Assembly (NCBI RefSeq): GCF_001696715.1 | Contig: NZ_MBFM01000001.1 | Coordinates: 701,383 to 734,774, forward strand | DNA length: 33,392 bases | Direction of reading: 5' to 3' | DNA from: Thauera phenolivorans | GTDB taxonomy: Bacteria > Pseudomonadota > Gammaproteobacteria > Burkholderiales > Rhodocyclaceae | Shown: positions 11,087-32,678 of the stretch, piece by piece | How the letters are laid out: every line of letters starts with the position of its first letter | How positions within the stretch are numbered: position 1 is the first letter of the stretch | Notes under the pieces: model-generated | Database searches by the model: none | Told to the model about the DNA's origin: nothing | The model's input: the letters and a program-made list of their open reading frames with translations, nothing else | Position numbers and translations under genes: made by a program

Positions 11087-12148
11087 TTAGATCGCCTTGA
11101 ACAGCGGGCTGCGCACTTGCTGGGCGTCAGCCGCCGACAGGAACTTCTCGGTGTAGATGTCGCGCTCGAACAGCCGTCCCTGCATCAGGGTACTGATGCA
11201 GGCGTCGATCATGAGCGGCGGACCGCACAGGTAGGCCTTGTGACCGCGGAAGTCGTTGTCGAAGGCGCTCTTTGCCGCTTCATGCACGAAACCGCGAAAG
11301 CCCCGCCAGTCCGAAGCCTCTGGCTCGTGCGATAGCGCCGGCACGTAGCGGAAGTTGGGGTGGGCTTCCGCCAGCGCGAGGAACTCCTCGTGGTAGTAGA
11401 GCTCCTCACGCGTCCGCTGGCCATAGACCAGCGTGATCGGCAGCTCGAAGCCCTCGCCGAGCAGGTCGAGGATCATCGAGCGCGGGCTCGACAGGCCGGA
11501 TCCGCCGGCCATGAAGATCACCGGCACCCGCGCCGACTTCTTGACGAAGAAGCGCCCGTAGGGTCCCGAAACGCGGGTTCGCTCGCCCACCTTCATCCGC
11601 TCGTGCACATAGCCGGTGCCCTGGCCGCCCGGCACGATGCGGATGTTGAGTTCGATGTCACCCGCCTGCGAAGGCGCGCTGGCGATCGAGAACGCCCGGC
11701 TGCCGATCCCGTCCGGCAGTTCTAGATTGACGTACTGTCCGGCCTGGAACCGGATTCCCGCCGGCTCATCGAGCTTGATCCAGACGCCCTTGATGGTCGG
11801 CGTCAGGGTCTCGATGCGGGTTACCACGCCGTCGAAATCCCGCACCGGCAGGTTCTCGGCGTCGGGATCGTCCTCGATGTCGGCCTCGATCACAAGGTCG
11901 CTCTGCGCGGTAGCGCAGCACGCAAGGCACTTCTGCTCGTCGCGCTCGAAATCCATCAGGGCGAAGCTCGACGCCTGCCCGTGCTCCACCTCGCCATCGA
12001 CGACCTGCACCTTGCAGGTCGCGCACAGGCCGTGGCAGCACGCGTGCGGGAGATAAATCCCGGCACGCAGGGCCGCGTCGAGGATGGTCTGGCCATCCTC
12101 GATCTCGATCGTCTGACCCAGTGGCTCGATGGTCAGCTCGTAGCTCAT
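11087..12148 (-). CDS. dmpP: phenol hydroxylase reductase component P5
   Basis: A 353-residue NADH-dependent reductase that passes electrons to the phenol hydroxylase oxygenase. The N-terminal plant-type [2Fe-2S] ferredoxin domain has the pattern Cys37-x4-Cys42-x2-Cys45 with Cys77 completing the cluster. An FAD domain follows with RAFSIAS, then an NAD-binding domain with AGGSGLSSPRSM and LCGPPLMID. The length matches DmpP. The ATG at 12148 follows GGGAGAAGGGC. It is the last gene of the upper operon, 13 bp after dmpO. No XylT/DmpQ-type ferredoxin gene follows it, unlike in the classical pVI150 cluster. Confidence 0.95.
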   Translation of the reverse strand: MSYELTIEPLGQTIEIEDGQTILDAALRAGIYLPHACCHGLCATCKVQVVDGEVEHGQASSFALMDFERDEQKCLACCATAQSDLVIEADIEDDPDAENLPVRDFDGVVTRIETLTPTIKGVWIKLDEPAGIRFQAGQYVNLELPDGIGSRAFSIASAPSQAGDIELNIRIVPGGQGTGYVHERMKVGERTRVSGPYGRFFVKKSARVPVIFMAGGSGLSSPRSMILDLLGEGFELPITLVYGQRTREELYYHEEFLALAEAHPNFRYVPALSHEPEASDWRGFRGFVHEAAKSAFDNDFRGHKAYLCGPPLMIDACISTLMQGRLFERDIYTEKFLSAADAQQVRSPLFKAI

Positions 12149-12161
12149 CTGCCCTTCTCCC

Positions 12162-12518
12162 TTAAGCCGCGTCGCGCAGCGTGTTGAGGCCCGGGGTGCG
12201 GAAACGCAGCTGTTCCTTGTGGCCGATGCCGTTCTCTTCGATGCTGCGCTCGAAGTCGGGCGTCCAGGGTTTGCCCAGCTTGAGCCATTCGACCTTACTC
12301 CAGTCGATCGAGGCCGCATCCGGATCCGGCTGCATCAGCGCGCTCAGCGGGCCGCGGACGAGATCGCCCAGCTTCATCTGCGGCTCGACGCAGAACATGA
12401 ACGGTGCGGCGAACAACATGTGGTAGTCCCACGCCACATAAACGAGCTGCTTGCCGTGGTAGTTCTCGACGCGGTCGCGCGAAACGCCGACGTATTCCTT
12501 CAAGGCTGCTACTGCCAT
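12162..12518 (-). CDS. dmpO: phenol hydroxylase component P4
   Basis: A 118-residue gamma subunit of the oxygenase core (DmpLNO). It carries the family signature VAWDYHMLFAAPFMFCVEPQMKLGDLVR near residues 28-55. It has no catalytic residues of its own and helps build the (alpha-beta-gamma)2 hydroxylase. The start at 12518 (MAVAALKEYVG) has AGGAGAATC upstream. It is separated from dmpN by 75 bp that contain a GC-rich hairpin, the largest gap in the operon. Confidence 0.93.
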   Translation of the reverse strand: MAVAALKEYVGVSRDRVENYHGKQLVYVAWDYHMLFAAPFMFCVEPQMKLGDLVRGPLSALMQPDPDAASIDWSKVEWLKLGKPWTPDFERSIEENGIGHKEQLRFRTPGLNTLRDAA

Positions 12519-12593: not shown

Positions 12594-14114
12594 TTATTCG
12601 TTGGACGTCGCCAGGCCGCGCCAGGCGTCGAAATTGCGCTGGTCGTTGGAGCCGACGTAGTCCCCGTTGTCCTGACCATCCTTGAGATTGACCCAGTCCA
12701 TCCAGGCGCCGAGATCGCCCCGGATCGGATCCTGATGGATCTGCGGCATCGGCAGCCATGCCTGGATGTACTTCTCCGGCTCGTTCTCGAAGATGTGCTG
12801 GCAGCCATCGGAGCAGAAGTGGTAACGCTCGCCCTTGTACTCCACCTCGCGGTGGCAGATCAGGGTCGGGTCCTCGGGCTCGGTGAACACGGTGGGTAGC
12901 TGGCAGGTCTGGCACAGCTTGGGCAGGCCGTAGTTCTTGTACGGCGTACCGGCCGCGGCCAGCTTCTTGATGTGATCCCAGCGCGGACGGTAGTACTTGT
13001 CGAAGGTGGTCGGGTACTTCTTCGACAGCCAAGCCATCTCGTCATCGGACGGGATCCAGCTGTGGAACGAGGTGCCGAAGCTCCACTGGTACAGACCGAG
13101 CATGAACTGGTGCGACATGTGGTCGATCGCCTTCTCCGCATCATCCCAGCCCTTGGGCGGGCGGATGCCGTAACGGGCGAGATCGTTGAACAGCGCGGTG
13201 CCGTTCTCGATGCCGTACATGTTCCATGCCTCGCGCCAGGACATCACGCGCTTGGGCAGCATGTAGTCCATCATCGTGCTGACCAGCCCGAGCACGCGGA
13301 AGCCGCGCCAGAACCACTTGTCGAACCAGGCCTGAACGATGGGAACGTTGGCCGGATCCTGCTCGAGCAGGAACTTGATGCACTCGAGACCGAGCGTCAT
13401 GTGCCGGGCCTCGTCCGACTGCGCGGAAAAGCCGAAGGTGACGGTGGCCATGTCGCCGTTGTAAGCCGCCCCCGACATGAAGGGCACGAACAACAGGTTG
13501 GTCAGCACGTATTCGAACGAGAAGCCGATCGCGACCATGAACTCGAACGGGCCGGCCGACATCGCGTCGTCGAAGAACGAGCGCGGCACCGACGTGTACC
13601 AGATGCGGTCGCGCTGGTCGGAAAACGCGTGGAAGCCGTCGTAATACTTGTTGTAGTTGGACAGCGCGTGAATCTGCGTCTGCGCATGACGGATCTCGTC
13701 GATCGCCTGCATCTGACAGGCGACCTGGGTCCCGACGCCGGGAAACTCGCGCCCGGCGCGGGCGAAGCCCTTGTGCGCGGCGTACTCGCCCGGGCTGATC
13801 GCCTGCAGGAAGATCTTCAGTGCCGACAGGTAGCGGGCGTCGGTGAGGTTGAGATGGCCGTTGTTCTGCGCATGGGCATCCACGATCGCATAGAACTTGC
13901 GCTCCTTCTCCGCCTGGTATTTCCAGTAGGCATCCATGGTGAGGCGGAAGGGATCCTCCCACTTCTCCCAATCGTGGATCTTGATGCCCTCGTACCCGAC
14001 GTAGGGGTACAGCGCTTCCTTCGTGTGATAGCTCGGTTCCCAGCCCAGGTCTCGGGTCATCACGCGATAGCGTTCCTTGAGGCCAAGCTTCTTCTTCGCG
14101 ACTTTCATTTCCAT
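12594..14114 (-). CDS. dmpN: phenol hydroxylase oxygenase large subunit P3
   Basis: A 506-residue alpha subunit of the soluble diiron phenol 2-monooxygenase, which hydroxylates phenol to catechol. Diiron ligands are visible as Glu110 (PGEYAAH), Glu140 and His143 (DEIRHAQ), Glu201 (FSFEYVLTN), and Glu235 and His238 (SDEARHM). A C-terminal zinc-type cluster of Cys and His residues follows (KLCQTCQLP, then a distant CH and HFCSDGC). I chose the ATG at 14114 (MEMKV) because GAGGAG precedes it at good spacing. It lies 14 bp after dmpM. Confidence 0.96.
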   Translation of the reverse strand: MEMKVAKKKLGLKERYRVMTRDLGWEPSYHTKEALYPYVGYEGIKIHDWEKWEDPFRLTMDAYWKYQAEKERKFYAIVDAHAQNNGHLNLTDARYLSALKIFLQAISPGEYAAHKGFARAGREFPGVGTQVACQMQAIDEIRHAQTQIHALSNYNKYYDGFHAFSDQRDRIWYTSVPRSFFDDAMSAGPFEFMVAIGFSFEYVLTNLLFVPFMSGAAYNGDMATVTFGFSAQSDEARHMTLGLECIKFLLEQDPANVPIVQAWFDKWFWRGFRVLGLVSTMMDYMLPKRVMSWREAWNMYGIENGTALFNDLARYGIRPPKGWDDAEKAIDHMSHQFMLGLYQWSFGTSFHSWIPSDDEMAWLSKKYPTTFDKYYRPRWDHIKKLAAAGTPYKNYGLPKLCQTCQLPTVFTEPEDPTLICHREVEYKGERYHFCSDGCQHIFENEPEKYIQAWLPMPQIHQDPIRGDLGAWMDWVNLKDGQDNGDYVGSNDQRNFDAWRGLATSNE

Positions 14115-14128
14115 GGTGGGCTCCTCGC

Positions 14129-14398
14129 TCAACTGTTCCAGGTCAGGGTGAACGCGTCTTCGTCCTCGTCCACATGGCCGGATAGCGTGATCAGGTTGAT
14201 CTGCAGCTCCTGCAGGTCGTACTCGCGGCCGAGCCTCTCCTCGATGCTCTCGCGACGGATGACCAGGCGGTTCGGCGCATCGATCTTCACCATCGCCGGC
14301 TGGCGGTGGACGACCGCCTGGGGGTTGTCGTGCGCGATCGCTTCGATGATCGGCCGGGTGTCTTCGTTGGTCTGCAGTGCAATGAATACGGTGGACAT
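14129..14398 (-). CDS. dmpM: phenol hydroxylase regulatory component P2
   Basis: An 89-residue cofactorless effector protein of the MmoB/DmpM family. It binds the oxygenase and is needed for efficient turnover. It begins MSTVFIALQTNEDTRPIIEA and contains LQELQINLITLSGHVDEDED near the C-terminus, both typical. Length matches DmpM (about 90). It is packed 10 bp after dmpL and 14 bp before dmpN. Confidence 0.94.
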   Translation of the reverse strand: MSTVFIALQTNEDTRPIIEAIAHDNPQAVVHRQPAMVKIDAPNRLVIRRESIEERLGREYDLQELQINLITLSGHVDEDEDAFTLTWNS

Positions 14399-17043: not shown

Positions 17044-18738
17044 TCAGTCGGGGGGGTCGCGGTCAGCCTGCTTCAGGCGATAGGCGAGCTGGCGGCGGGT
17101 GATCCCCAGCAGCTTCGCCGCGTGCGTCAGATTGCCCTGGGCGCGTTGAACCGCCAGCTCGAGCAGTTGCGTCTCGTGCGTCTGCAGGTCGAAGCCGTCG
17201 TGCAGCAGCGAGTCGTAGAGCTGCCTGCGCTCCGCCTCGCTCGCGTCGGCCACCATGCCCTTGCGATCGATCTCCACCCCTGCCTGGTGCGCCGGCAGCC
17301 CGCCCGCGAACAGGTGCTCGACCTCGATCTGTTCGCCGGGCGGCACGAGCAGCACGCCGCGCTCGATCAGGTTCTCGAGTTCGCGCACGTTGCCCGGCCA
17401 GGCCTGCGCCACCAGCGCCTGCATCGCGCGCTCGGTGATGCCGAGCACCTTCTTGTGATATATCGGCGCGTATTTGTTCACCAGCGCGGTCGCGAGCAGG
17501 GGAATGTCGCCCTTGCGCTCCCGCAGGGGCGGAATCGTGACCGGATAGGTGGCGAGCCGGTAGTAGAGGTCGGCGCGGAAGCTCCCGTCCGCGATCGCCT
17601 GCTGCAGATTGACGTTGGTGGCGGCGATCAGGCGCACGTTCACCTTGCGCGTCTGCTGGTCGCCGAGGCGCTCGATCTCCCCGGTCTGCAGGACGCGAAG
17701 GAGCTTCACCTGGGCGGAGGGCGATAGATCGCCGACCTCGTCGAGGAAGATCGTGCCGCCATTGGCGCGCTCGAAGCGCCCCGGCCGCGACTGCTGGGCG
17801 CCGGTGTAGGCGCCCTTCTGCACGCCGAACAGTTCGGATTCGATCAAGTCGTGCGGAATCGCCGCGCAGTTGATGGCGACGAAGGGCTGCTCGCGCCGGT
17901 CGCTGTGCTCATGCAGCCAGCGCGCGAACATCTCCTTGCCGACCCCGGTTTCGCCGAGCAGCAAGACGTTGATCGGACTGTTCGCCGCCTTGCTGGCGAG
18001 GTCGAAGGCCGCCCGAAAGCTGGGCGAGTCGCCAATCAGGTCGTCCGCCTCGTGGCGGGCGGCGAGCGAGGCCTTGAGCTGCCTGACGTCGTCCTGCAGG
18101 CGGCGCAGCGTGCATTCGACGTTGTCGGGCTTGAAATAGTCGAGATAGCCGTCGTCGAAATCCCACAGCTCGGCGGGCTTGCCCACGATGCGGCAGCGTG
18201 CCGCGCCGGCGCCGGCGCCGGCGCCGGCACACTCCACCTCGCGAAAGACCACGAAGCGCTTGAGAAAATAGCTGACGTAGCCCGAGGCGTAGCCGACGAG
18301 GCTCCAGCACACCGGATCCTCGCTGTGCCCAAAGGACTGCAGGTGGGACTCCACCTCCCAGGAATTTTCCCAGGCGACTTCACCGAAGAAGGTGCCGCGC
18401 TCCCAGTCGATCTTGGCGTCGAGGATCGTCGCCTTGACGAGGCCCTCGAAGGCGTGCAGTTCGGGGCCGATCCGGAACGCATCGTAGGGATCGCATTCGC
18501 CGGCCAGCTTTGACGCAAGATCCGCGTCCTGCGTGCCGGACGCGAAGCCCATCCGCAGCAACAGGCCGCGGGCCCGCTTCACCCCCAGCGTATCGAACAG
18601 CTCCCGGCGCAGGGCGCCGAACGCCTGCGCGTGGAACATCAGCATCCGGCTCTCGCCGAGCCAGATGTGCCCGCTCTCGAGATTGAAGCGAAGCCTCGAA
18701 CGCAGGTTGAATTGCTCGATCAGTCTTTGCTGCGTCAT
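17044..18738 (-). CDS. dmpR: DmpR/XylR-type sigma54-dependent phenol-responsive activator
   Basis: A 564-residue NtrC-family activator. The N-terminal XylR_N/V4R sensor spans about 1-210. A linker near 211-230 and a AAA+ domain follow, with Walker A GETGVGKE (262-269), sigma54-contact loop GAYTGA (309-314, with Tyr for the usual Phe), Walker B GGTIFLDEVGD (327-337) and the arginine-finger region. A Fis-type HTH ends the protein. Matched to MopR, His95 and Trp123 correspond to the phenol-contacting residues, and Cys144, Glu167, Cys170 and Cys182 to the zinc ligands. The last two Cys are 12 apart here against 8 in MopR, because of an Ala-Gly repeat (171-178). The start at 18738 gives the DmpR length. 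It should activate 16773-16788. Confidence 0.94.
   Translation of the reverse strand: MTQQRLIEQFNLRSRLRFNLESGHIWLGESRMLMFHAQAFGALRRELFDTLGVKRARGLLLRMGFASGTQDADLASKLAGECDPYDAFRIGPELHAFEGLVKATILDAKIDWERGTFFGEVAWENSWEVESHLQSFGHSEDPVCWSLVGYASGYVSYFLKRFVVFREVECAGAGAGAGAARCRIVGKPAELWDFDDGYLDYFKPDNVECTLRRLQDDVRQLKASLAARHEADDLIGDSPSFRAAFDLASKAANSPINVLLLGETGVGKEMFARWLHEHSDRREQPFVAINCAAIPHDLIESELFGVQKGAYTGAQQSRPGRFERANGGTIFLDEVGDLSPSAQVKLLRVLQTGEIERLGDQQTRKVNVRLIAATNVNLQQAIADGSFRADLYYRLATYPVTIPPLRERKGDIPLLATALVNKYAPIYHKKVLGITERAMQALVAQAWPGNVRELENLIERGVLLVPPGEQIEVEHLFAGGLPAHQAGVEIDRKGMVADASEAERRQLYDSLLHDGFDLQTHETQLLELAVQRAQGNLTHAAKLLGITRRQLAYRLKQADRDPPD
18205..18228. repeat. (GCCGGC)4 hexanucleotide tandem repeat inside the dmpR sensor domain
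   Basis: Four perfect copies of GCCGGC lie head to tail and encode (Ala-Gly)4 at residues 171-178 of the regulator. The repeat sits between two predicted zinc-ligand cysteines. Gain or loss of one unit keeps the reading frame and changes the loop by two residues. Confidence 0.9.
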
Positions 18739-18806
18739 GCCTGCATGTCTCCACCCGGGCTTGGCGCCGCCGGCACTTTCCAGGCCGAGCGGCGCCAGGT
18801 GCACTG

Positions 18807-21496: not shown

Positions 21497-22216
21497 TTGC
21501 TCGGTTATGAGGTCAAGTTCCAGACCGTCGGCGTCGCCGGCGGCGCCGAGTTGAAGATAAGATCGCTGCTCGATCTCCTTCAATTCCACGACCCGCTGGG
21601 CGAAGCCGAGGCGGCGGGGATTTCCTCGGCGACCTGGCCGCTCTTCGGCCAGCTCTGGCCTTCGGCACAGAAGCTCGCCGGGCTGATGCAGACCCTCGAT
21701 CTGCGCGGGCGGCGAATCCTCGAGACCGGCTGCGGCCTCGGCCTGGCCAGCCTGGTCATCCACCGACGCGGCGGCGATTCGACGGCAAGCGATTGCCATC
21801 CCCTGGCCGAAACCTTCCTGCAGGCCAACCTGGCGCTCAATGACTTGCCGCCGCTGAAGTACGGCACCGGCATCTGGGGCAGAGCCAATCCCGGGCTCGG
21901 CGAATTCGACCTGATCATCGCCAGCGACGTGCTCTACGAGCGCAGCCACCCGGAACAGCTGTCCGAATTCATTCAGGCTCACGCCGCCCCCGCGGCCGAG
22001 GTCCTGATCATCGATCCACGGCGCGGTAACCGCAGCGCGTTCAATCGCCTCATGGGCGAACTCGGTTTCGGCCTGACCGAAACCCTGATCGAAACGCCGC
22101 TGGAAGACGGCACGCCTTACCGCGGCCGCCTGTTGCGCTATCTCAGGGGCTCGCCCCACGCGACCATCCCCATCGAACAAGGAGTTTTCAATGTCCCAGC
22201 TCATCCAACGAACTGA
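21497..22216 (+). CDS. class I SAM-dependent methyltransferase, protein-lysine methyltransferase-like
   Basis: A 239-residue seven-strand methyltransferase. Motif I is ILETGCGLGLASL (residues 74-86), Asp99 follows strand 2, and FDLIIASDVLYE (137-148) resembles the DxxY-type motif of METTL21/ETFB lysine methyltransferases. The target is unknown. The start is a TTG at 21497 preceded by GGGAGAAGTCGC; no in-frame ATG occurs early, and an upstream start is blocked by the cold-shock terminator. Its 3' end overlaps the next gene by 26 bp, implying translational coupling. Confidence 0.8.
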   Translation: MLGYEVKFQTVGVAGGAELKIRSLLDLLQFHDPLGEAEAAGISSATWPLFGQLWPSAQKLAGLMQTLDLRGRRILETGCGLGLASLVIHRRGGDSTASDCHPLAETFLQANLALNDLPPLKYGTGIWGRANPGLGEFDLIIASDVLYERSHPEQLSEFIQAHAAPAAEVLIIDPRRGNRSAFNRLMGELGFGLTETLIETPLEDGTPYRGRLLRYLRGSPHATIPIEQGVFNVPAHPTN

Positions 22217-22553
22217 ACTCAAGACCTTCTACTACACGCCGGTCCATTGCCCGTTCTGCGGCGTACGCGTCATGGGCGCCGACCCGCAGGACGAGACCCG
22301 CATCACCGCCTGTCCGCACACGCTGTTCATCGCCCACGACACGGCGTTCGAGTATCGCTCCGCGCGCCTGGACAAGAACCTCGAATTCGACGGCCTGTCG
22401 GAACGCGAGATCGAGGCGAAGTGGCACGAGGACGAGCACGGCATCGACGGCCTCACCGACAAGGTCAGCCTGGCCGATGCGATCAAGGTCGCCGCCTACG
22501 CCCCCGCTCCCTCGGCGTATGGCTCCTACTACGGCTTTGCGCCGGTCGAATAG
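22191..22553 (+). CDS. conserved hypothetical protein with a CPFCG zinc-like motif
   Basis: A 120-residue protein that I do not recognise. VHCPFCGVRV near residue 20 and TACPHTLFIAHD near residue 40 together could form a small Cys3His zinc site. The rest is acidic and mixed in charge, with a Ser/Tyr/Ala-rich tail (APAPSAYGSYYGF). There is no signal peptide or membrane segment. The ATG at 22191 has AAGGAG upstream. It overlaps the methyltransferase gene at its 5' end (26 bp) and the convergent VTC-fusion gene at its 3' end (25 bp). Coupling to the methyltransferase suggests that it could be its partner or substrate, which is a guess. Confidence 0.7.
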   Translation: MSQLIQRTELKTFYYTPVHCPFCGVRVMGADPQDETRITACPHTLFIAHDTAFEYRSARLDKNLEFDGLSEREIEAKWHEDEHGIDGLTDKVSLADAIKVAAYAPAPSAYGSYYGFAPVE

Positions 22554-24331
22554 GTCGCGTCGACGGTCGCCGCCCTGCGCCGCAGGACGGTGAAGGTGGT
22601 GCCGCGGCTCGACCTGCCGCGATCGTCGCTGACGATCATCACGCGGCCCTCGCCGAGCGAGGTCAGGCCCTCGAAGTTGTCGGCCTCGGCCGGGCGGTCG
22701 AGGACGGCGAGCTCGCGCACCGGACAGACCTGCCCGTCCGCGCACGCGGCCAGATCGACCTCGCTCAGCACCACCATCAAAGTCCTGCCCTTGCCCTTGC
22801 CCGCTTCGGCGCGCTCGAGCACCAGCAGGCGGCCGTCGTCCATCACGTCCATGCCCTTGAGGCGCGCGTTGCGGGCCGGATGGCTGGGAAAGGACCAGGC
22901 GCGATCGCGCCCGACCACCCGGTGGTGGCCCGCGCGCTCGCCTTCCAGCGGCGCCTCGGCGGCCACCAGCAAACCGTGCTCAGGATGCATGGCGACCGCC
23001 TCGAGCATCGCGTTGTCGCGACGGAAGCGCGCCGGATCGTCCAGCCCGCCGGGCAGCGGCAGGATGCCGAGCGGCTGGCCGGCGAGGGAGTAGCGGATCA
23101 CCCGCGGCTCGCCTTCGGTCGACACCAGCAGTTCGCTGTTGCCCTTGATGCCGTCGTCGGCGCCGGTCACGGCGAGGCCTTCGGCATCCACGCCGGCGCC
23201 GCTGCCCGGCGGCGGCGCGAGCCGGCTGGCCGCGATCGGCTCGACCTCGAGCTGGCCGCTGGCGCCGAGCTCGACGCTGAAGCGGAACAGCACGCCACGA
23301 TCGGAAACCGCATACAACCGCCGCTCGTCGGCATCCCAGGCCAGGCCCGAAAGCTCGGAGATGCGCTCGCCGTCCACCGCGGCACCGATCACCCGCAGGG
23401 TGGCCGCGACCGTGAGCGGTTCGGCGGCCTCGGCCTGCATCAGGGGCGCAAGCAGGGCCGCAGCGATCGACAGCATGCCCGCGAGCCGGCGCAGCGGCCG
23501 ACGTGCGACGCGGTGCGCGACCGCGTGCGCCGGGGTCGCCACGGGGCGACGCGGCGGCTCGACCTCGAGCTTGCGCAGCGCGGGCAGGAACTTGTTGTGG
23601 CGCTCCACCGCTTCCAGCGCTGCCATGCCCACGCAGTACTTGGAGCAACGCGAGGTCGGGTGCTGGTGCAGCGCGCGCAGGATCTTGTCGGCGATGCCGT
23701 TGCCATTGGCCGACTTGGTCTCGACGATGAAGACATCGGGCGGGGTCATGCGTTGCCGCCCGCCCTTGCGAAACAGCAGCCTGCTGTCGATGGTCATGCG
23801 TTCGCCGCCTTCCCGCGCCACCAGCGTCACGCGCTGATAGCGCATCTCGATCACCGCCTGCAGCGTGTGGCGGAAGGGCTCGCCGTACTGCTTGCGATAG
23901 GCCGAATCCACATGGGCACAGGCCTGTTCGTCGAGCATCCCGTACTTGTCCACCGTGTAGTCGAGCCGCTTCTTGACGGTGATGCCGCGCTTGTCCTTGA
24001 GCTTGACCTCGACGAAGCACAGCTGCGCGTCGGTGTATTTGCGCACCCGCACCTTGCAGCGGCGGCGCCGGCCCTGGTGGTGGTCGTAGTAGCTGTGGAG
24101 CTCCTCGTCGTCGAAGTAGCAGGTCTCGTAGGTGAAGGCGCGCTTGCCGTCGATCTCGAGGACCTCGAAGTGCTGCGCCAGTTCGGCGAGCGCCTCGCGC
24201 AGCACGCTCTCGCGCACCACGTACTTGTTGTCCAGGCGTTCGAGCATGGCGGCCTTGACGTTCAGGGCCGCGAGCGTGATCGGGGTGAATTCGGCGAACA
24301 GGGGTCGCGCACGGTCGATGGTGTGGCTCAT
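22529..24331 (-). CDS. VTC polyphosphate-polymerase domain fused to a phytase-like domain
   Basis: A 600-residue three-part protein. Residues 1-255 match the VTC domain, the fold of the yeast polyphosphate polymerase Vtc4: ERLDNKYVV (31-39), KVRVRKY (93-99), FVEVKLKD (107-114), VKKRLDY (119-125), MRYQR (163-167), DSRLLFR (182-188) and VETKS (203-207) supply the tunnel of basic residues plus the metal-binding Glu. Residues 275-303 form an Arg-rich hydrophobic segment like a signal anchor, ending AEAA. Residues 305-590 resemble the esterase-like phytase family (ELSGLAWD, LYAVSDRG, DAEGLAV, DNFEGLTSLGEGRVMIVSDD). Predicted topology is polymerase inside and phytase-like domain in the periplasm. 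It follows the DUF4956 gene by 30 bp. The reading frame is continuous, so this is one protein unless there is an internal start. Confidence 0.82.
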   Translation of the reverse strand: MSHTIDRARPLFAEFTPITLAALNVKAAMLERLDNKYVVRESVLREALAELAQHFEVLEIDGKRAFTYETCYFDDEELHSYYDHHQGRRRRCKVRVRKYTDAQLCFVEVKLKDKRGITVKKRLDYTVDKYGMLDEQACAHVDSAYRKQYGEPFRHTLQAVIEMRYQRVTLVAREGGERMTIDSRLLFRKGGRQRMTPPDVFIVETKSANGNGIADKILRALHQHPTSRCSKYCVGMAALEAVERHNKFLPALRKLEVEPPRRPVATPAHAVAHRVARRPLRRLAGMLSIAAALLAPLMQAEAAEPLTVAATLRVIGAAVDGERISELSGLAWDADERRLYAVSDRGVLFRFSVELGASGQLEVEPIAASRLAPPPGSGAGVDAEGLAVTGADDGIKGNSELLVSTEGEPRVIRYSLAGQPLGILPLPGGLDDPARFRRDNAMLEAVAMHPEHGLLVAAEAPLEGERAGHHRVVGRDRAWSFPSHPARNARLKGMDVMDDGRLLVLERAEAGKGKGRTLMVVLSEVDLAACADGQVCPVRELAVLDRPAEADNFEGLTSLGEGRVMIVSDDRGRSSRGTTFTVLRRRAATVDATYSTGAKP

Positions 24332-24361
24332 GTCGGTCTCCGGGGCTCGGGCGGGTGATGC

Positions 24362-24946
24362 TCAATGCTTGCGGTAGAAGACGTTGATGCGCGCCATGTC
24401 GTTGATGTAGTCGAGCGTGGTGATCTGGTAGGACATCACCTCCACGCCGAGACGGGCAGAGAGATCGGCGCGCATGACCTCGGGCCTGGACAGGGCGTGG
24501 GCGTCGATCTTGTCGAGGGTGATCTTGACGCCGTCGGCCGAGCGCAGGATGCGCGGGTGGTCGATGATCCAGGCCGCGAGCAGGATCAGCGCCGCGACGG
24601 TGGCGACGAACTCGAGGGTCGTGCCCTGCACCGAACAGATCACCGCGATCGCCACGCTGCCGAAGAAGTAGGTGATCTCGGTCTTGCTGATCTGCTCGGA
24701 ACGCAGCGAGAACAGCGCCAGGATGGCGAACAGGCCGAAGCCGGCGGCGACGCTGAATTCCACCGAGGACAGGATGGTCAGCACCGCGAACGCGAAAATG
24801 TTGAACATCGCGGCGGCGGTGACCAGCTCCTTGTCACGATAGCGGCGGTAGTACATGCCGAACACCAGGGCGACCATCGCGGCGATGTCGATCGCGAAAC
24901 GGGCGACGAGTTCGATGACGACGGCCTGGCTGAAGTCGGGGCTCAT
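24362..24946 (-). CDS. DUF4956 membrane protein
   Basis: A 194-residue membrane protein with about four or five hydrophobic segments in the first 130 residues (near 11-30, 43-61, 66-82, 92-110 and 113-130). A soluble C-terminal domain follows (DGVKITLDKIDAHALS and LGVEVMSYQITTLDYINDMARINVFYR). It fits DUF4956, a family commonly found next to VTC-domain genes in bacteria, suggesting a membrane partner for the polymerase, perhaps in polymer export or anchoring. The start at 24946 has GGAGAG upstream. A Pho-box-like repeat lies 111 bp upstream. Confidence 0.82.
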   Translation of the reverse strand: MSPDFSQAVVIELVARFAIDIAAMVALVFGMYYRRYRDKELVTAAAMFNIFAFAVLTILSSVEFSVAAGFGLFAILALFSLRSEQISKTEITYFFGSVAIAVICSVQGTTLEFVATVAALILLAAWIIDHPRILRSADGVKITLDKIDAHALSRPEVMRADLSARLGVEVMSYQITTLDYINDMARINVFYRKH

Positions 24947-25056
24947 TTTTTCTCTCCAACGGTTGGGGTTGTGCGGGCTTCTCGCCGGGCGTGCTCTCGT
25001 ACGCCCTTGCACCGACAACGCGCTGGAGGCGCGGCTATTCCCGCCGCGTCCCGGTT

Positions 25057-25075
25057 CTTACATTTTCGTTACAAA
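25057..25075 (-). promoter_or_regulatory. Pho-box-like direct repeat upstream of the DUF4956-VTC operon
   Basis: On the minus strand TTGTAAC (25074-25068), GAAA, ATGTAAG (25063-25057) form two seven-base direct repeats with an AT-rich four-base spacer, an 11 bp period. This is the layout of a PhoB box (CTGTCAT-N4-CTGTCAT), with TGTAA for TGTCA. It lies in an otherwise GC-rich gap ahead of the DUF4956 gene. GGAATA follows about ten bases later and could be a -10. Assignment to PhoB is inference. Confidence 0.5.
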
Positions 25076-25164
25076 CCCCGCTGCGCCGCCTCACCGCATG
25101 GCGCACAGCGCCTGATGGAAGCCGTCCGCGGCACCGGCCGCGTGGCGACGGCCTCGACCAGCCC

Positions 25165-26511
25165 TCAGCCCGCAACTTCGGGCCGGGGATTTTCGAGGAA
25201 GAAGCGCATCATTTCCCCGGTCGCATCCGGTCCCTTCGGATCGGTATAGGAGCCACTCGCGCTGCCGCCGGACCACGCATGGCCGGCACCGTGGATGAGC
25301 CAATGCTCGGCGATCGCCTGGCCGTCGATTCGCTGGTAGAGGGTGCGGGTGTACGCATGGCCCTGCGGCACCTGTCCGCGCTGCACGGTGACGCGCGGTT
25401 CGGGCGCGCCCTGCGTGCGCTGCGGCGCGGTGGGCGGCATGCACTGGGAGATCACCTGGTCGCCGTTGCCCGGATGGACGGTGGTGTCACGGTCGCCATG
25501 GAAGACGATGGCGGCGACCGCCTGCGCGCCGGCGATGGTTCGGGCGTCACCCCCTAGCGGCGCGGCCCGCCCCTGTTGCATGGCCGCCAGCGCGGACGGC
25601 AGATCGCGCGCGACCGCGTGCGGCAGCCCGGAATGGATGCCGACTGCCGCGTACAGCTCGGGGTAGGTGACCGCCATCGTCATCGCCATCGCGCCGCCCG
25701 CCGACAGGCCGGCGACGTAGATGCGGCGCTGATCGACCGCGTGGGAGTCGCATACCTGACACGTCATGCCGGCGATGATCGACGGCTCGCCCTGATCGCG
25801 CTGCTGGTCGCCGCCCTTGAACCAGTTCCAGCACTTCGAGACGTTCGCACCGCCCGTCTGCGCCGGGTAGAGCACCAGGCAGTGCCGCTTTTCGGCGAGT
25901 TCGTTCATCTTCGTGCCGGCGGCGAAATCGTCCGGGTCCTGCGTGCAGCCGTGCAGCATCACCACCAGCGGCAGCGGCTGGCCGTGATACGCACTCGGCA
26001 CATACAGCCTGTAGGCCCGCGTGCCGGCGTGATTGGTAAAGGACGCGGTGAGGAACTGCGCACCCTCGGGCAAGGGCGCCGGGGCGCCCTTCGCCATCGG
26101 CTGCGCGAACGGCCCGTGCAGGGGCTGCCATTGGCCACGCAGCGCGGCGCCATCGAATCGGGGCCAGGCCGGACGAGCCGGCGACGCAGCCGCCGCCGCG
26201 GCGGATGGACCGCGCCGCGGCTGCTGCCGTGGCCTGGCCGCGGGCTCGGGGTCGACGATGACGAAGTCGGCATCGGTCGCCGGGCCGTCCTCACGCCTGG
26301 CGCGCGTGGCGCGGTGGCCGGCGGGCTCGGCGTCCATGAGGAAGACGTCGTGCTCGACCGGCGTCCCGGTGTGCGGTGTGGCGCCGGCGGCGGGCTCGGT
26401 CCCGTGGCCGCCATTGAGGGTGCGCTGGATGAGCGCGGTCGCCTCGAGCAACTGTCCGGCGCGGGTGAGGCGCAGGGCTTCGAGCATTGCGGAATTCATC
26501 GGTGCGTTCAT
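25165..26511 (-). CDS. PHB depolymerase-family esterase
   Basis: A 448-residue protein. The C-terminal ~300 residues form an alpha/beta-hydrolase of the esterase-PHB/LpqC depolymerase type: oxyanion segment LHGCTQ (186-191), lipase box GLSAGGA with Ser270, an Asp in FHGDRDTTVHPGN and a His in GAGHAWSGG. The N-terminal ~140 residues are low in complexity, rich in Ala, Pro and Arg, beginning with a short amphipathic helix (MLEALRLTRAGQLLEATALIQ). There is no signal peptide, so an intracellular substrate such as a native PHA granule is possible. The ATG at 26511 has AGGAGAG upstream. It follows the CopG-like gene by 69 bp. Confidence 0.87.
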   Translation of the reverse strand: MNAPMNSAMLEALRLTRAGQLLEATALIQRTLNGGHGTEPAAGATPHTGTPVEHDVFLMDAEPAGHRATRARREDGPATDADFVIVDPEPAARPRQQPRRGPSAAAAAASPARPAWPRFDGAALRGQWQPLHGPFAQPMAKGAPAPLPEGAQFLTASFTNHAGTRAYRLYVPSAYHGQPLPLVVMLHGCTQDPDDFAAGTKMNELAEKRHCLVLYPAQTGGANVSKCWNWFKGGDQQRDQGEPSIIAGMTCQVCDSHAVDQRRIYVAGLSAGGAMAMTMAVTYPELYAAVGIHSGLPHAVARDLPSALAAMQQGRAAPLGGDARTIAGAQAVAAIVFHGDRDTTVHPGNGDQVISQCMPPTAPQRTQGAPEPRVTVQRGQVPQGHAYTRTLYQRIDGQAIAEHWLIHGAGHAWSGGSASGSYTDPKGPDATGEMMRFFLENPRPEVAG

Positions 26512-30887: not shown

Positions 30888-32678
30888 ATGGAAATTCAGG
30901 TCAATTTTCTCGACAAGCTTCGTCTCGAGGCCAAGTTCGATGACTTCACCGTGGTCGCAGATCAGCCTATCCGCTATAAGGGAGATGGCTCGGCGCCCGG
31001 CCCGTTTGATTACTTTCTGGCTTCGTCGGCCATGTGTGCGGCTTACTTTGTGAAGCTGTACTGCGAAACGCGCAATATTCCTACCGACAACATCCGCCTG
31101 TCGCAGAACAATATCGTCGATCCTGAAAACCGCTACAAACAAATCTTCAAGATCCAGATCGAGCTGCCGTCGGATATCTCCGCCAAAGACAGGCAGGGCA
31201 TCCTGCGCTCCATCGACCGTTGCACGGTGAAGAAGGTGGTGCAGACCGGGCCTGAATTCGTGATCGAGGAAGTCGAGAATCTGGATGCGGATGCCCAGTC
31301 CTTGCTGACGCTGACTCCGGATCCGGAAGCGAGCACCTATATCGCAGGAAAGGATCTGCCGCTCGAGCAAACCATCGCGAATATGTCGAGGGTTCTGGCG
31401 GGCCTGGGCATCAAGATCGAAATCGCTTCGTGGCGCAATATCGTTCCCAACGTGTGGTCATTGCACATCCGCGATGCGCACGCGCCGATGTGCTTCACCA
31501 ACGGCAAGGGCGCCACCAAAGAAAGCGCGTTGGCCTCGGCCCTGGGTGAATTCATCGAGCGGATGAACTTCAACCATTTCTACAACGACCAGTTCTGGGG
31601 GGAGCACATCGCCAACGCGGCATTCGTGCATTATCCGAATGAGCGCTGGTTTCTACCTGGCCCTGATGATGCGCTGCCGGCTGAAATTCTCGACGACTAC
31701 TGCCTGCGGATCTACGACCCCGAGGGCGAGTTGCGTGGCTCGCATTTGTACGACACCAACTCGGGCAACGTGGCGCGCGGCATCTGTTCGCTCCCGTATG
31801 TGCGTCAGTCGGACGGCGCGGTGGTGTATTTCCCGTCCAACCTGGTCGACAATCTGTTCCTCAGCAATGGCATGAGTGCCGGAAATACGCTGGCCGAAGC
31901 ACAGGTGCAATGCCTGTCGGAAATCATCGAGCGCGCGGTCAAACGTGAAATTCTGGGCGGTGAAATCGCACTGCCCGATGTGCCGCACCAAGTACTGGCG
32001 AAATATCCCGGCATTCTGGCCGGCATCGAGGCGCTGGAGAAGCAGGGCTTTCCGGTGCTGGTGAAGGATGCGTCGATGGGAGGGGCGTTTCCGGTGATGT
32101 GCGTCACCTTGATGAACCCACGCACGGGCGGAGTGTTCGCCTCTTTCGGGGCGCACCCGAGCATGGAGGTGGCGCTGGAACGCAGCCTTACCGAGTTGCT
32201 GCAGGGGCGCAGTTTTGAAGGCCTGAACGATTTACCCGCGCCCACCTTCGAAAGCAACGCCGTAACCGAGCCGCACAACTTCGTCGAGCACTTCATCGAT
32301 TCCAGCGGCGTGGTGTCATGGCGTTTTTTCAGCGCAAAAGCCGATTTCGATTTCGTCGAGTGGGACTTCTCCGGCCAGGGTGAAAACTCCAATGCCGAGG
32401 AAGCCGCGGCCTTGTTCGGCATTCTCGAGGGCATGGGCAAGGAAGTGTACATGGCAGTGCATGACCAGCTCGGCGCAACGGCCTGCCGCATCCTGGTGCC
32501 GGATTATTCGGAAATCTATCCGGTGGAAGACCTGATCTGGGACAACACCAACAAAGCACTGTCGTTTCGCGCCGACATCCTGAACCTGCATCGCCTCGAC
32601 GATGCCAGCCTGGAAGCACTGCTCGAGCGACTGGAAAGCAGTGAGCTCGATGACTACACCGACGGGCACCTCGAATAA
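30888..32678 (+). CDS. OsmC-YcaO fusion protein, short form
   Basis: A 596-residue two-domain protein. Residues 1-140 are OsmC-like (PGPFDYFLASSAMCAAYFVKLY with the redox-type Cys). From about residue 150 it is the YcaO fold: the ATP-binding features of E. coli YcaO are recognisable in ASWRNIVPNVWSLHIRD, FTNGKGATKESALASALGEFIER, SNGMSAGNTLAEA, CLSEIIERAVK and FGAHPSMEVALERSLTELLQGR. YcaO enzymes activate amide backbones; in E. coli YcaO is linked to RimO-dependent methylthiolation of ribosomal protein S12. The protein ends at DDYTDGHLE, whereas E. coli YcaO continues with a helical, TPR-like tail of about 150 residues. GC content is visibly lower than in neighbours. AGGA lies seven bases before the ATG. 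Confidence 0.88.
   Translation: MEIQVNFLDKLRLEAKFDDFTVVADQPIRYKGDGSAPGPFDYFLASSAMCAAYFVKLYCETRNIPTDNIRLSQNNIVDPENRYKQIFKIQIELPSDISAKDRQGILRSIDRCTVKKVVQTGPEFVIEEVENLDADAQSLLTLTPDPEASTYIAGKDLPLEQTIANMSRVLAGLGIKIEIASWRNIVPNVWSLHIRDAHAPMCFTNGKGATKESALASALGEFIERMNFNHFYNDQFWGEHIANAAFVHYPNERWFLPGPDDALPAEILDDYCLRIYDPEGELRGSHLYDTNSGNVARGICSLPYVRQSDGAVVYFPSNLVDNLFLSNGMSAGNTLAEAQVQCLSEIIERAVKREILGGEIALPDVPHQVLAKYPGILAGIEALEKQGFPVLVKDASMGGAFPVMCVTLMNPRTGGVFASFGAHPSMEVALERSLTELLQGRSFEGLNDLPAPTFESNAVTEPHNFVEHFIDSSGVVSWRFFSAKADFDFVEWDFSGQGENSNAEEAAALFGILEGMGKEVYMAVHDQLGATACRILVPDYSEIYPVEDLIWDNTNKALSFRADILNLHRLDDASLEALLERLESSELDDYTDGHLE

Follow-up and report, generated by a model that had tools for sequence, protein, structure and literature searches.

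Does one protein of Thauera phenolivorans tie polyphosphate synthesis inside the cell to the gain of phosphate outside it? The question is raised by a single open frame, found in the 33,392-nucleotide stretch of DNA that was analysed (the window), in which a VTC domain is followed by a phytase-like domain. The first-pass annotation took the frame for a membrane-anchored fusion and proposed that it would be a new type of machine. We compared the frame with known VTC proteins, with its counterparts in related genomes and with the genes that surround it.

The two halves of the fused frame and the segment between them

The frame occupies 22529..24331 on the minus strand (the strand had not been given before). 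It starts with ATG, encodes 600 aa and contains no internal stop, in agreement with the uninterrupted 600-residue frame first described. A Pfam search, as the annotation had proposed, confirmed both families well above their cut-offs. The VTC domain (PF09359) covers residues 32-239 (23615..24238, minus) with 118.7 bits against a cut-off of 23, and the phytase-like domain (PF13449) covers residues 324-570 (22622..23362, minus) with 121.3 bits against a cut-off of 27.6. These were the only two Pfam domains detected at E 1, with no SPX or transmembrane domain among the matches, and the protein matched no NCBIfam family. In its own genome the fused protein gave a single match.

The VTC half has the triphosphate-tunnel fold and its conserved tunnel residues. 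Across 22 diverse bacterial VTC proteins, 17 alignment columns were invariant, including K36, R95, R97, E108, K110, K120, R167, D182, E204, K206 and K231. When PDB sequences were searched with the profile of these 22 relatives, yeast Vtc4 was matched at 6.4e-20; a narrow VTC profile or the single sequence gave no PDB match. The Vtc4 residues in the same motifs, counted along chain 8i6v_E, are K200, R264, R266, E279, K281, K294, the YxR arginine, the RxxxD aspartate, E426, K428 and K458. A passage of PMC9911596 gives R264, R266 and E426 as the residues mutated to inactivate VTC, and K458 is named catalytic in a passage of PMC4641920. Loss of the tunnel residues on alignment had been named as a result that would refute the proposal; they are kept. 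The structural model of the whole frame was confident across the VTC half, and its first 13 Foldseek matches were Vtc2/3/4 chains (E 8.9e-12 to 3.5e-9). The target-normalised TM of these matches, at most 0.57, was low because the query holds two domains. A separate observation concerns D34 (24230-24232, minus), an acidic residue that is invariant in 30 close bacterial VTC proteins and whose Vtc4 equivalent is Thr198.

The Thauera VTC half thus has the tunnel fold and the aligned active-site residues in common with Vtc4, the catalytic subunit of the yeast VTC complex. Eukaryotic VTC subunits carry an N-terminal SPX domain and a C-terminal transmembrane domain, whereas Pfam matched neither in the Thauera protein, whose gene adjoins that of a DUF4956 membrane protein. 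Judging by family and position, the likeliest role of the VTC half is polyphosphate synthesis in the cytoplasm. A passage of PMC4641920 notes that tunnel enzymes whose centre is similar can also be hydrolases.

The phytase-like half is predicted to form a beta-propeller, and WD40-type propellers ranked after the Vtc chains in the Foldseek list. The model was weak by pLDDT at residues 373-411, 415-421 and 429-441 of this domain, and a phytase-like profile searched against PDB sequences found no solved relative (best E 0.8). The domain resembles the PF13449 family ('Esterase-like activity of phytase') in its score and in the signal-peptide-like segment in front of it. It differs in that the relatives have it as a separate protein, whereas in T. 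phenolivorans the domain is the C-terminal half of a VTC protein. Judged by family and position, this half is most likely exported and acts on phosphorylated matter.

Between the two domains lie residues 275-303 (23423..23509, minus; VARRPLRRLAGMLSIAAALLAPLMQAEAA), with an Arg-rich start and then a short hydrophobic run at 283-298. The signal-peptide-like character of this segment is indicated by its sequence, its hydropathy and a comparable segment in relatives. Its best 19-residue Kyte-Doolittle mean is 1.49, which is a signal-peptide-like value and not a strong transmembrane one. Read by eye, the hydrophobic run is followed by an AEA↓A site (AxA) that fits signal peptidase I, so the segment may be cleaved. 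In the predicted structure the linker at residues 265-300 had a pLDDT below 50. A hydrophobic stretch ahead of the phytase-like domain was present in 34 of 36 sequences, the fusion included, at a 12-residue mean of at least 1.8; the other two sequences had means of 1.71 and 1.46, and the count is an uncontrolled one. The positive-inside rule is established for membrane topology. Since the hydrophobic run is preceded by an Arg-rich stretch and followed by an acidic one, a topology with the N-half inside and the C-half outside is favoured.

Taken together, segment 275-303 most plausibly represents the signal peptide of a second gene, retained in the fusion. Cleavage is therefore likely, and a lasting tether less so. 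We read the segment as a cleavable signal within the fused protein; a permanent anchor is possible but weakened by the modest hydropathy and the AxA site that follows. Of the membrane anchor originally described, the Arg-rich and hydrophobic segment is real and its charges agree with an N-in/C-out arrangement; the claim of an anchor as such is set back by the hydropathy, the AxA site and the place of the segment, where relatives have the signal peptide of their separate phytase-like protein.

Separate genes in relatives and the origin of the fusion

To count the same fusion elsewhere, we used the fused protein as a query and found 52 related loci, of which 45 carry a VTC gene. A phytase-like match on the same strand as VTC was present in the fetched stretches of 35 of these 45 relatives, a proportion that is biased upwards because the fused protein served as the query and search patterns were taken from both of its halves. 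In none of the 35 were the two encoded in a single open frame. The phytase-like match lay downstream of VTC within 575 bases in 25 of them and before VTC in two; in the remainder a transporter or porin gene stood between. Five relatives (L010, L019, L023, L035 and L051) had a four-base overlap of the two genes at an ATG, which suggests coupled translation. The ten VTC loci without a same-strand phytase-like gene at E 1e-5 comprised one with the gene on the opposite strand and nine with none in the fetched stretch; among these nine, L040 has a weaker phytase-like match and the stretch of L013 ends just past VTC.

In the genus sample the genes were present in three of 29 genomes and fused in one, T. 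phenolivorans. A whole-protein search of 369 class genomes gave matches in 44, and both halves were spanned only in the source genome. Counting the source genome each time, 9 of 369 class genomes contained VTC, as did 8 of 398 phylum genomes (7 of them over the cut-off) and 1 of 399 order genomes. In these samples the longest frame with any other VTC match had 378 residues, and that match fell below the cut-off.

The two nearest relatives, Thauera sp. 28 (L008) and Thauera UBA9855 (L009), are 83-87% identical per half and indicate how the fused frame may have arisen. In UBA9855 the VTC stop is followed by a 41-base spacer that includes a strong ribosome site (anti-SD -8.0), and then by the ATG that opens the signal peptide. 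The spacer of Thauera sp. 28 measures 94 bases, and the second gene there has its own start. In T. phenolivorans none of the stop, spacer, ribosome site and second start remains, and the VTC tail reads on into ARRPLRRLAGMLSIAAALLAPLMQAEA, a sequence similar to the UBA9855 signal peptide, ARHPLNALMLAITLGATPVIAADA. The distance from the VTC match to the phytase-like match is 124 bases in T. phenolivorans, compared with 153 and 281 in the two relatives.

Presence in one genome only would also be expected if a sequencing or assembly error hid a stop or a frame shift between two normal genes. The details of the junction argue against this. The other two frames run from the VTC end to nucleotide 889 or 1349 of the gene with no near stop, so that undoing a simple base-call error would not yield two ordinary genes. 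The spacer does not merely differ by one base: it is shorter, and its sequence is different. The in-frame starts tested lack a ribosome site, and the source assembly has 14 contigs and is rated 100% complete and 2.54% contaminated. With shifted frames that give no sensible two-gene layout, read-through or a base-call error is unlikely, and we regard a hidden error of this kind as very improbable.

Alternatively, the phytase-like half could be made mainly by internal initiation at the GTG of codon 264, in which case the fusion would have little effect. This codon is in frame and ahead of the signal-like segment, and a start there would give a 39-residue signal peptide. Its anti-SD value is -2.2, close to the background median of -2.4, and those of the other in-frame starts, at codons 286 and 298, are both -1.7; the VTC start has -6.6. 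Since codon 264 has no ribosome site, we rejected it as an internal start and consider this explanation quite improbable.

Both halves appear to be under constraint. From T. phenolivorans to the two relatives, dN/dS was 0.24 and 0.23 for VTC and 0.26 in both comparisons for the phytase-like half; between Thauera sp. 28 and UBA9855 it was 0.28 for VTC and 0.16 for the phytase-like half. Unshared amino-acid changes (T. phenolivorans, sp. 28 and UBA9855, respectively) numbered 17, 14 and 11 in the VTC half and 29, 14 and 15 in the phytase-like half. These values, which span time before the fusion as well, suggest that both halves are constrained; the second may have been somewhat relaxed after fusion, or the branch may just be longer.

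How, then, does the two-sided machine fare, in which the fused protein would stay in the membrane and couple phosphate release outside to polyphosphate synthesis inside? The single frame with zero stops, the low dN/dS in both halves, the charge pattern favouring N-in/C-out and the phosphate cluster formed by the neighbours all speak for it. It is countered by the absence of any fusion among relatives that have both genes, by the lack of another long VTC frame in the class, phylum and order samples, and by the hydropathy and AxA site of the segment. We consider it unlikely. A fusion of two normal neighbours in a single genome does not support a new type of machine, and all 35 relatives with both genes on one strand encode separate proteins, the pattern that the annotation itself had named as refuting.

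A conserved DUF4956, VTC and phytase-like cluster

The gene of a 194-aa DUF4956 membrane protein (24362..24946, minus; PF16316, 165.1 bits) lies 30 bases upstream of the fused frame. DUF4956 was matched in 44 of the 45 relatives, L051 being the one without a match. The model of the protein (pLDDT 76.4) has five N-terminal helices and then a small alpha/beta domain. A fold search gave nothing significant among the matches listed (best E 0.052, probability at most 0.75); the alpha/beta matches to the C-terminal part were short and too weak to use, and a DUF4956 profile found nothing below E 0.3 among PDB sequences. A passage of PMC7112168 describes gene sets of CotH, a poly-phosphate polymerase and DUF4956 beside Gram-positive pel clusters. 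In the sets as described there, a polyphosphate-polymerase-like gene stands with DUF4956, as in the Thauera cluster; the pel-side sets have CotH, DUF4832 and Pel genes, whereas the Thauera-type cluster has the phytase-like gene together with Pho-box-like sites and, in some relatives, a phosphate porin or PHO4 transporter. Gene neighbourhood, these CotH sets included, makes DUF4956 a candidate membrane partner of VTC.

Phosphate transport genes recur at these loci. By single-sequence tblastn, uncontrolled against random loci, a PHO4 transporter was found in 11 of the 45 stretches, an OprP/O porin in 8, and one or both in 17; three of the genes counted, in L026 or L027, sit on the other strand. 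Pfam confirmed phosphate transport genes at L046 (5821-7431) and L015 (5773-7215 and 7203-8390). We also assembled a less biased set of 16 VTC matches over the cut-off from 14 genomes of the class and phylum samples, excluding the source genome and the one sub-cut-off match; several of its stretches end at contig ends. Here a phytase-like gene adjoined VTC at one of 16 loci (L130), and L122 had a separate 747-residue phytase-like frame 3.3 kb from VTC. A PHO4 transporter adjoined VTC at three of the 16 (L119, L130 and L132) and a phosphate porin lay by VTC at one (L124). A DUF4956 gene was within the stretch at seven and adjacent at four. From these counts, a phytase-like partner is a trait of the close VTC group, and phosphate transport genes recur more widely.

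Two further observations concern these genes. Bacterial VTC genes of several groups adjoin PHO4 transporters or OprP/O porins (L046, L015, L130, L132, L119 and L124). L119, from a distant VTC group, has its PHO4 transporter beside VTC and no DUF4956 match in the stretch.

A consensus scan found a Pho-box-like site, TTGTAACGAAAATGTAAG, upstream of DUF4956 (25057..25074, minus; 15 of 18, two mismatches). It is the best site in the whole window: 15 of 18 was reached in two of 221 tiles, both of which contain this site. Both Thauera relatives have this site too, conserved at a similar distance in diverged surroundings. To extend the comparison, 300 bases upstream of DUF4956 were scanned on both strands in 44 stretches, those of T. 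phenolivorans and 43 relatives; L014 (gene cut by a contig end) and L051 (without DUF4956) were left out. Sites with at most one mismatch to TGTCA-N6-TGTCA, a consensus that agrees with a passage of PMC3465305, were present in 20 of the 44 (L012, L013, L016, L018, L019, L025, L026, L029, L031, L032, L034, L037, L039, L041, L042 and L044-L048). By comparison, 60 first-order Markov shuffles gave a mean of 0.33 (at most 3), and 60 sets of random stretches from the same loci gave a mean of 0.92 (at most 4). The count ignores kinship, but the sites are spread over Hydrogenophaga, Rubrivivax, Aminobacter, Rhodobacteraceae and Nitratireductor. The strict pattern TGTNA-N6-TGTNA was found in 8 of 45 stretches, a count that includes L014 with its upstream stretch misplaced, against a background of 67 in 9000.

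PPK1, PstS and PhoB are encoded elsewhere in the T. phenolivorans genome, PhoB being matched with 367.3 bits against a cut-off of 296.2. The strict Pho pattern was absent near pstS, phoB and ppk1 of this genome. Against the Pho-box reading, a good box is lacking at pstS, where the best site scores 13 of 18, and the phoB and ppk1 regions reach 15 of 18. Within 22100-25400 no sigma-70-like promoter was found, and there was one terminator-like site against 1.3 expected by chance.

Other genes of the window are noted here in their own right. Just upstream, 25168-26511 (minus) encodes a PHA depolymerase of the 'extracellular catalytic domain type 1' family (NF050058, 326.6 bits), with no N-terminal signal peptide evident by eye. 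An aromatic-catabolism region (17047-18804, 12597-14132 and 11090-12319, all minus) has a XylR_N/sigma-54 activator near a phenol-hydroxylase-family component and a 2Fe-2S/FAD/NAD reductase. At 30888-32675 (plus) there is an OsmC-YcaO two-domain frame (YcaO 213.1 bits, OsmC 36.8 bits).

A proposed working of the cluster and its meaning

Collectively, these results make it probable that the frame is a one-genome fusion of two neighbours in a conserved DUF4956, VTC and phytase-like phosphate cluster, working in the following steps. The VTC half would make polyphosphate from ATP in the cytoplasm, and the internal Sec-type signal would send the phytase-like half through the membrane. Signal peptidase would probably cut after A302 and free the phytase-like half into the periplasm, and the VTC half would then keep a hydrophobic tail; without the cut, the halves would stay tethered across the membrane. 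In many hosts the cluster is probably under PhoB control and may tie phosphate gain outside to polyphosphate synthesis inside. The link between outside phosphate and inside polyphosphate proposed in the first-pass annotation is therefore plausible for the operon, given the transport genes at 17 of 45 loci and the Pho-box-like sites, and is not supported for a fused machine.

A bolder and rather doubtful reading is that the cluster is a bacterial counterpart of the eukaryotic VTC complex, induced by phosphate starvation, in which polyphosphate would be made at the inner face, DUF4956 would serve as membrane partner or channel and the propeller in the periplasm would feed or handle phosphate, with T. 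phenolivorans having a fused, tethered pair. Our literature search found no paper on the VTC and phytase-like combination or on this bacterial cluster.

The fusion is rare, its interest is probably local, and it hints that the polymerase and its secreted partner share one job. More broadly, bacterial VTC genes of this group are part of a phosphate cluster that has Pho-box-like sites, and the T. phenolivorans genome encodes PPK1 as well. If the VTC proteins make polyphosphate, this would be a second, Vtc4-like bacterial route to the polymer, with a candidate membrane partner.
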